Of a stretch of DNA of 51,758 bases, positions 49,439-51,758 are shown piece by piece; positions within the stretch are counted from its first letter, which is position 1, and each line of letters begins with the position of its first letter. Source of the DNA: Deltaproteobacteria bacterium. GTDB taxonomy: Bacteria; Desulfobacterota; Desulfarculia; Desulfarculales; Desulfarculaceae. The stretch lies in contig JAJZPI010000006.1 in assembly GCA_021811275.1 (NCBI GenBank), positions 1-51,758 on the forward strand, read 5' to 3'. Position numbers and translations under genes: made by a program. The notes under the pieces were generated by a model, which saw nothing but the letters and a program-made list of their open reading frames with translations, ran no database searches and was not told the DNA's origin.

Positions 49439-49810
49439 TCAGACAGATGCTTCGATTTGGCGGCACCTGGCCAACAGCGCGAGGGCGTCCCGGCGGCCGG
49501 GCCGGGGAGGAAGCCTGGCCAGAACCCCCAAGCCTTCGTAGACCTCGTGGAAACGCTCCTCGGACAACCTGCTGATCACGGCCACGTTGACGAAGGCGTT
49601 GAGCGCCAAAAGTTGACGGATAAACTCCAGGGGCGAGACCTGACGCAAGTCTTCATCGACGATCACCAGGCCGGGGGTATCCCGGGCAACTTTTCGAAGC
49701 GCCTGGGCGCATTCGGTGGCCACCATGATCGGCTCCCCGCACTTGGCGCCGAGCAGTCTGGCGAAATGCACCGAACCGGCCGGCGCGGGCGTCACCAAAA
49801 GCGTCTTCAT
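49439..49810 (-). CDS. Receiver-like (CheY-fold) stand-alone protein
   Basis: This 123-residue protein begins MKTLLVTPAPAGSVHFARLLG and has the alternating strand/helix pattern of a receiver domain: VIVDEDLRQVSPLEFIRQLL with Asp in the phospho-acceptor position, and VAVISRLSEERFHEVYEGLG. The usual acidic pair at the start and the Thr/Lys switch residues are weak, so it may be a non-phosphorylated pseudo-receiver. GGAGAGAGGC lies before the ATG. The start overlaps the end of the NifU-like gene (49807-49810), so it is the last gene of that operon. Confidence 0.72.
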   Translation of the reverse strand: MKTLLVTPAPAGSVHFARLLGAKCGEPIMVATECAQALRKVARDTPGLVIVDEDLRQVSPLEFIRQLLALNAFVNVAVISRLSEERFHEVYEGLGVLARLPPRPGRRDALALLARCRQIEASV

Positions 49811-50231
49811 GCCTCTCTCCTTTCCCCGGCGGACACGGCTTGCGCCAACCGCCGCCGCAGGTGGTCCTCTATCGCCTCGCCCAGAGCATTGACGGCCAGG
49901 CGCGCGCAGAGCCAATGATCCTCCGGCAGGCCGCCCAACTCCAGTTCCAAGCCCTGTGGTTCGAGGCGAAGCGCGCCCTCCAGGTTGAGCCCCCGGACCA
50001 GGCTAGCCAAGGCGCTAGCGCAGGCCACGGTATAGATACAGCCCCTGGTCGCGGCCCCGATGCCCTGGATTGTCGCGTCATCCACCCGGATACCCACCTC
50101 CACCGAATCGCCACGTTGGCCCACCCCGTTCGCCAACCGTCGGGATCGACAAGTCTAAGCTGAAAGGGGGGCGAGAGGGCGTGGCACAGAAACCCCGCAC
50201 CCATCCGGTCAAAGGGAAAGTCTTCCTTCAC
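49807..50231 (-). pseudogene. NifU-like Fe-S scaffold gene with a frameshift
   Basis: The C-terminal part (about 49807-50136) encodes GDSVEVGIRVDDATIQGIGA, RGCIYTVACASALASLVRG and LPEDHWLCARLAVNALGEAIEDHL. This matches NifU-N/IscU-like scaffold proteins, including two likely cluster cysteines. The N-terminal part lies in a different frame, from GTG 50231: MGAGFLCHALSPPFQLRL then VDPDGWRTG, which matches the NPR-x-VG-x-DPDG start of the family. Adding one G in the ACGGGG run (50124-50128) would join the two halves as DPDGWRTGVGQRGDSVEV. If only the C-terminal frame is used, translation would begin at a TTG (50136) without a good ribosome-binding site. The first scaffold cysteine (normally before GD) is Arg even in the repaired protein. 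It is either a damaged gene or an assembly error. Confidence 0.75.
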
Positions 50232-50441: not shown

Positions 50442-50831
50442 TCACGGATGCTGGCGGCCGCCGCCTCCGCCGCAGGTGAACTCCTGACTGAACTGGGGCA
50501 GTTTTCCCTCGGCCAAGGCGGCGACCGCCTGCCCCACGCTCTCGGCGCCCCCGCCGAAAAAGACCTGGATGCCAACCTGGTTGAAGCCCATCAAGGGGCG
50601 CAAGCCCATGCCGCCGGCGATCAGGACCTGTATGCCATTGCCGGCCAGGCGCTGCACCGGGGCCATGCACCCGCCCTACTGATGGGGAACATTGGGCAAC
50701 ACCCGCACGTCCTTGATCTCGCCCTGCTCCAGTTTCACCACGGTATATAGGTCGCAATGGCCGAAGTGGGCCCCCAATTCGGCGTCCAGTCCGCCCGGCA
50801 GGGTGGAGGGAATGGCTACGATGGCCTTCAT
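50442..50831 (-). pseudogene. NifX/NifB-like dinitrogenase FeMo-cofactor family gene interrupted by in-frame TAG
   Basis: The frame from ATG 50831 encodes MKAIVAIPSTLPGGLDAELG, AHFGHCDLYTVVKLEQGEIK and VLPNVPHQ, then TAG (codon 52, bases 50676-50678 on the plus strand), then GGCMAPVQRLAGNGIQVLIA, GGMGLRPLMGFNQVGIQVFF and a CGGGGG tail. Apart from the single TAG the 129-codon frame is an uninterrupted match to the NifX/NifB-like family, where PHQQGGCMAPV is usual; a single C-to-T change (CAG to TAG) would create it. The downstream part could start at the ATG of CMAPV (50666) but lacks a ribosome-binding site. Neighbouring genes end in TAG normally, so general TAG recoding is unlikely. Confidence 0.8.
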
Positions 50832-50867: not shown

Positions 50868-51752
50868 TCAGGCTGCCTGTTTTTGCCCGGCCAGGGCCAC
50901 GATGGCCCGCCAGGCGTCTTCGATCAACTCGGCCAGGCCGCCGTTTTCCTGCTCGGTCACCACCCGGCCAGCCAGCATGGCCCGGACAAAGGCGGGGTCG
51001 TGGGGGAGCTTGGCCAAGAGCGGCAGGCCCTCGCGGGCGCAGTAGCGCTCGATGAGGCCCGACTGTTCATCGTTGAGGTCATGCTTGTTTATGATCACCG
51101 CCGCGGGCACCCGGAAATGGGCGCACAGCTCCACCACCCGCTCCAGGTCGTGCCGGCCCGATGGCGTGGGCTCGGTGACCGCCACCGCCAGGTCCACCCC
51201 GCTCAGGGAGCTGATTACCGGGCAGCCTATACCCGGAGCGCCGTCGCAGAGGATGAGGTTCCGTCCCCGGCTCCGGGCCAGTTGCTTGGCCTGCTGGCGC
51301 AGGAGGGCCACCAGGCGGCCCGAGTTCTCCTGGCCCGGAAATAGCTGGGCGTGGACCAGGGGGCCGAAGCGGGTGCTGGAGATGTACCAGCGGCCGCAGT
51401 GTCTCTCGGGAAAGGCGATGGCCTGGGCGGGGCAGAAGTGCACGCAGACCTTGCAGCCCTCGCACCTGCGCTCGTCCACCGCCGGGGCCCATTCTAGGTT
51501 GGCGATGGCCTGGTAGCGGCACATCTCAAGGCACAAGCCGCAGGAGGTGCAAAGTTCCGGGTCTATGACCGCGTGGTGGCCGAAGAAGAACTCCTCTGTT
51601 CTCTCGGCGGCTGGGTCCAACAGCAGATGTAGGTCGGGCGCGTCTACATCCAGGTCGCAGATCACCGGATCCTGGGCCAGATGGGCGAAGGCCCCGGTCA
51701 GTGAGGTCTTGCCCGTGCCGCCCTTGCCGCTGATGACCAGAATTTCAGGCAT
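50868..51752 (-). CDS. MinD/Mrp-family ATPase with two 4Fe-4S ferredoxin motifs
   Basis: This 294-residue P-loop protein has the deviant Walker A SGKGGTGKTS (residues 8-17) and CDLDVDAPDL as its switch I region. Two ferredoxin-type clusters are inserted after the first strand: CTSCGLCLEMC (Cys68, 71, 74, 78) and CEGCKVCVHFC (Cys97, 100, 103, 107). Later GAPGIGCPVISSL and VTEPTPSGRHDL complete the Mrp/NBP35-like core. Proteins of this type usually occur beside NifX-like proteins in anaerobes and are thought to act in Fe-S or metal-cofactor assembly or transfer. It is the first gene of the cluster inside the window, 36 bases upstream of the NifX-like gene. Unlike its neighbours it is intact. 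Confidence 0.92.
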   Translation of the reverse strand: MPEILVISGKGGTGKTSLTGAFAHLAQDPVICDLDVDAPDLHLLLDPAAERTEEFFFGHHAVIDPELCTSCGLCLEMCRYQAIANLEWAPAVDERRCEGCKVCVHFCPAQAIAFPERHCGRWYISSTRFGPLVHAQLFPGQENSGRLVALLRQQAKQLARSRGRNLILCDGAPGIGCPVISSLSGVDLAVAVTEPTPSGRHDLERVVELCAHFRVPAAVIINKHDLNDEQSGLIERYCAREGLPLLAKLPHDPAFVRAMLAGRVVTEQENGGLAELIEDAWRAIVALAGQKQAA

Positions 51753-51758
51753 GGGCGG

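Follow-up and report, generated by a model that had tools for sequence, protein, structure and literature searches.

The described system that the locus resembles, when the two are likened by domain content and motifs, is the ORP (orange protein) cluster of Desulfovibrio vulgaris, which includes the Orp3 and Orp4 ATPases, Orp8, and Orp9/MrpORP (PMC6345978). Set against that description, the clusters have in common two MinD-like ATPases that carry paired 4Fe-4S motifs and are encoded next to Di-Nase proteins, as well as the HFGHC motif, which the NifX-like gene studied here shares with the Di-Nase domain of MrpORP. In contrast to the Desulfovibrio cluster, one Di-Nase protein of the present locus is fused to DUF134, and NifU-like and receiver-like genes are present. 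The NifX-like gene also differs from MrpORP (NF041136) in being single-domain: it scores 50.9 bits against an equivalog cut-off of 450, with the Di-Nase part alone matching. Among solved PF02579 structures, MTH1175 (1eo1) and the TM1816-type NifB-like protein (1o13) match across nearly the whole domain; the similarity, however, is low (35-36 bits), and the HFGHC and QGGC cysteines are unshared in the alignments shown.

The window, that is, the whole stretch of 51,758 nucleotides analysed here, forms contig C10 in the draft genome of a sulfate-reducer-like bacterium (3.95 Mb, 245 contigs, 97.9% complete). The features under discussion lie close to its end and are the following.

49439..49810, minus strand: receiver-like protein of 123 aa; intact frame, conserved neighbour in relatives
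49807..50231, minus strand: remnant of a NifU-like scaffold gene (PF01592) with a one-base deletion, a Cys to Arg and a His to Leu change
50442..50831, minus strand: NifX-like gene (PF02579, Di-Nase); frame of 129 codons with TAG at codon 52 and a TGA end
50676..50678, minus strand: the in-frame amber codon (codon 52); close orthologs have a Gln codon here (CAG or CAA)
50868..51752, minus strand: MinD-like ATPase B with two 4Fe-4S motifs; intact frame, directly upstream of the NifX gene, likewise in relatives

The last 98 bases of the window (51661-51758) are identical to the end of another contig, C201 (L167 16367-16464), and therefore the two contigs probably join, with the operon running on into C201. 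Read through this overlap, the gene order is DUF134-Di-Nase fusion, MinD-like ATPase A, MinD-like ATPase B, interrupted NifX, NifU-like scaffold, and receiver-like protein, and the same neighbours surround NifX in relatives. The fusion, found at about 14725-15490 of L167 and upstream of both ATPases, carries its DUF134 and PF02579 Di-Nase domains in one frame.

Translation of 50442-50831 on the minus strand begins with MKAIVAIPS, reads NVPHQ, stop, GGCMAPVQ around the interruption, and ends with GGGGGRQHP before the terminal stop, a single TAG being the sole interruption. This agrees with the original prediction, as does the PF02579 profile match, which runs through the stop at 64-65 bits (cut-off 26.3) and reaches 65.2 bits when the stop is read as Gln, above the curated cut-off for membership in the family. 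Not one of 48 near-invariant columns is changed in the frame, so that the sequence on both sides of the stop is, as judged from the alignment, genuinely coding rather than open by chance. No further decay inside the gene was seen in these columns, and divergence after the stop shows no consistent increase over divergence before it, i.e., no consistent loss of constraint. The interruption itself, codon 52 in a frame of 129, comes long before the natural end and is one substitution away from the sense codon of the orthologs; an ATG follows at codon 56, nine bases past the stop.

Close orthologs, which come from Desulfobacterota-type genomes and are ~60-75% identical, align unbroken through the stop. 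Among their aligned copies codon 52 is CAG in 84 and CAA in 11 (with some records present in duplicate), and TAG occurs in the window's own sequence alone. The expectation of Gln at this position is thus borne out, and the proposed C-to-T origin gains support, ortholog CAG being one base from TAG. In paralogues that are less closely related, codon 52 encodes Glu or Ala and is never a stop. A single TAG in genome G015 was considered as another interrupted copy and rejected: it was taken as a natural end, and the same sequence (L092) has an open frame up to residue 124, in which position 52 is Gln.

According to several measures, TAG is a functioning stop codon in this organism. RF1 was found in the genome, ARAGORN reported no CUA anticodon at the loci of 46 tRNA matches (0/46), and TAG terminates roughly one in three of the window's likely genes (~14/45 by a crude gene call, with one spurious antisense frame set aside), which supports the earlier statement that there is no genome-wide TAG reassignment. 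The Gln tRNAs have the usual UUG and CUG anticodons. Genome-wide leaky stops, considered as a further candidate, were rejected on the absence of in-frame stops in 69 ABC-transporter domains of the genome. For UAG being decoded as pyrrolysine, or read by a dedicated amber-suppressor tRNA, nothing speaks besides the in-frame TAG itself. The search for pyrrolysine machinery covered two families; PylS (C-terminal model) gave weak, sub-threshold matches similar to those in nearly all control genomes, and MttB was not found. Together with the tRNA result and the presence of RF1 in a draft of this completeness, these searches give recoding or amber suppression no support and leave its probability next to negligible.

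The NifU-like neighbour, whose damage the original prediction had not noticed, is broken in its own right. Nucleotide alignment with ten relatives places a one-base deletion near 50134. Measured between the GTG start and the stop (50231-49807), the remnant is 425 bases long, a length that three does not divide. The NifU-like gene of relatives comes after NifX, and its opening segment ends in GxCGDS or a close variant; the counterpart of this segment in the window is spread over two frames. The Cys of GQCGDS, presumably the first of the cluster ligands as in NifU/IscU proteins, is replaced by Arg at 50113-50115, and a conserved His by Leu. For comparison, 37 of 40 sequences show zero deviations in the near-invariant columns of this gene (~21). 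On these alignments the damage is of two independent kinds, and it lies in the same cluster as the interrupted NifX gene.

Taken as a whole, the evidence makes it likely that a recent CAG-to-TAG nonsense mutation inactivated the NifX-like gene within a decaying cluster. The mutation appears young because the frame is otherwise undamaged, and ordinary recent gene loss is favoured because the adjoining NifU-like gene is broken too. With a single base changed, translation would halt at codon 52 and presumably leave a stub of 51 residues, which would retain the HFGHC motif and lack ~60% of the protein. The scaffold was disabled separately, by the frameshift and by loss of the ligand Cys, both visible in the sequence; the NifX stop is probably younger than this damage. 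Bacterial pseudogenes that arise by recent nonsense mutation present a similar picture, likewise combining one disabling point change in an otherwise conserved frame with a damaged neighbour and a congener that lacks the gene. If the mutation is very young, the putative pseudogene status of NifX would rest on the stop together with the damage to the adjacent gene. Against decay, the genes for the ATPase and the receiver-like protein on the flanks are intact, which would make the decay partial, and an unblemished NifX frame would equally fit an error or a read-through stop. Of the 3 outcomes that the original prediction had left side by side (a protein made in two pieces, suppressed, or lost), loss fits best and is further backed by the separate NifU-like lesions, whereas suppression lacks a suppressor tRNA or pyrrolysine system and a split lacks a split relative. 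On this account the premature stop would be part of the ordinary erosion of a module of metal-cluster genes and would say nothing about stop-codon reassignment. The locus may show an ORP-like cluster midway through its loss, which could be of some use to students of that poorly understood complex.

A flawless remainder of the NifX frame is also what a sequencing, assembly, or strain-mixture artefact would leave, with CAG in most of the population, and the draft state of the genome and the contig end ~0.9 kb away, at the 98-base overlap, point in the same direction. Such an artefact is nevertheless unlikely: several independent lesions are present in the adjoining NifU-like gene, two of them missense changes at near-invariant residues, the 69 uninterrupted ABC domains indicate that such errors are rare in the assembly, and a second, intact copy of the NifX gene, sought in the window's own genome bin, was not found. 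A real TAG with low-level read-through by near-cognate tRNAs, yielding some full-length protein and a frame kept by selection, would account for the full constraint beyond the stop. In one published survey, dN/dS is reported to stay below 1 for many in-frame stops of bacterial genes, and the authors make a case for read-through being common in bacteria (PMC7918605). Any young nonsense mutation, however, predicts the same pattern, and the stop is common to no ortholog, the adjacent partner gene is broken, and no suppressor tRNA was found among the 46 tRNA genes, which makes read-through decidedly improbable. The more specific idea of an amber codon maintained as a leaky switch, which would let a little full-length Di-Nase protein be made and keep the module mostly off, is very improbable.

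As for a protein made of residues 1-51 plus a fragment restarting at the codon 56 ATG, this start is near enough to the stop for termination-reinitiation. Met at codon 56, however, is also found in most stop-free orthologs and hence is no adaptation, the break falls inside a single PF02579 domain, and no relative naturally ending and restarting at codon 52 was seen among those aligned, so that a two-piece protein has a very slender chance indeed. Recent inactivation of the NifX-like gene remains the preferred reading.

Comparison with five congeners (G001-G005, all draft genomes) suggests a variable presence of the module. Neither the NifX ortholog nor the ATPase B ortholog was found in G002 (99% complete) or G003 (85%), which have a more distant paralogue only, whereas G004 retains both genes. 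In G001 the most similar ATPase is retained and the contig stops short of the NifX gene, and G005, just 54% complete, says little on presence or absence. Since neither ortholog was found in a congener that is 99% complete, the module appears dispensable in the genus, with dispensability being the presumed functional reason for the pattern. The host genome itself has two other intact PF02579 genes, located on C201 and C142, which count in favour of loss. An intact NifX-like paralogue, ~50% identical, lies at L106 7898-8281 without other ORP-like genes alongside; inspected by eye, its flanks show a NUDIX-like gene on one side and phage-structural-like genes on the other.
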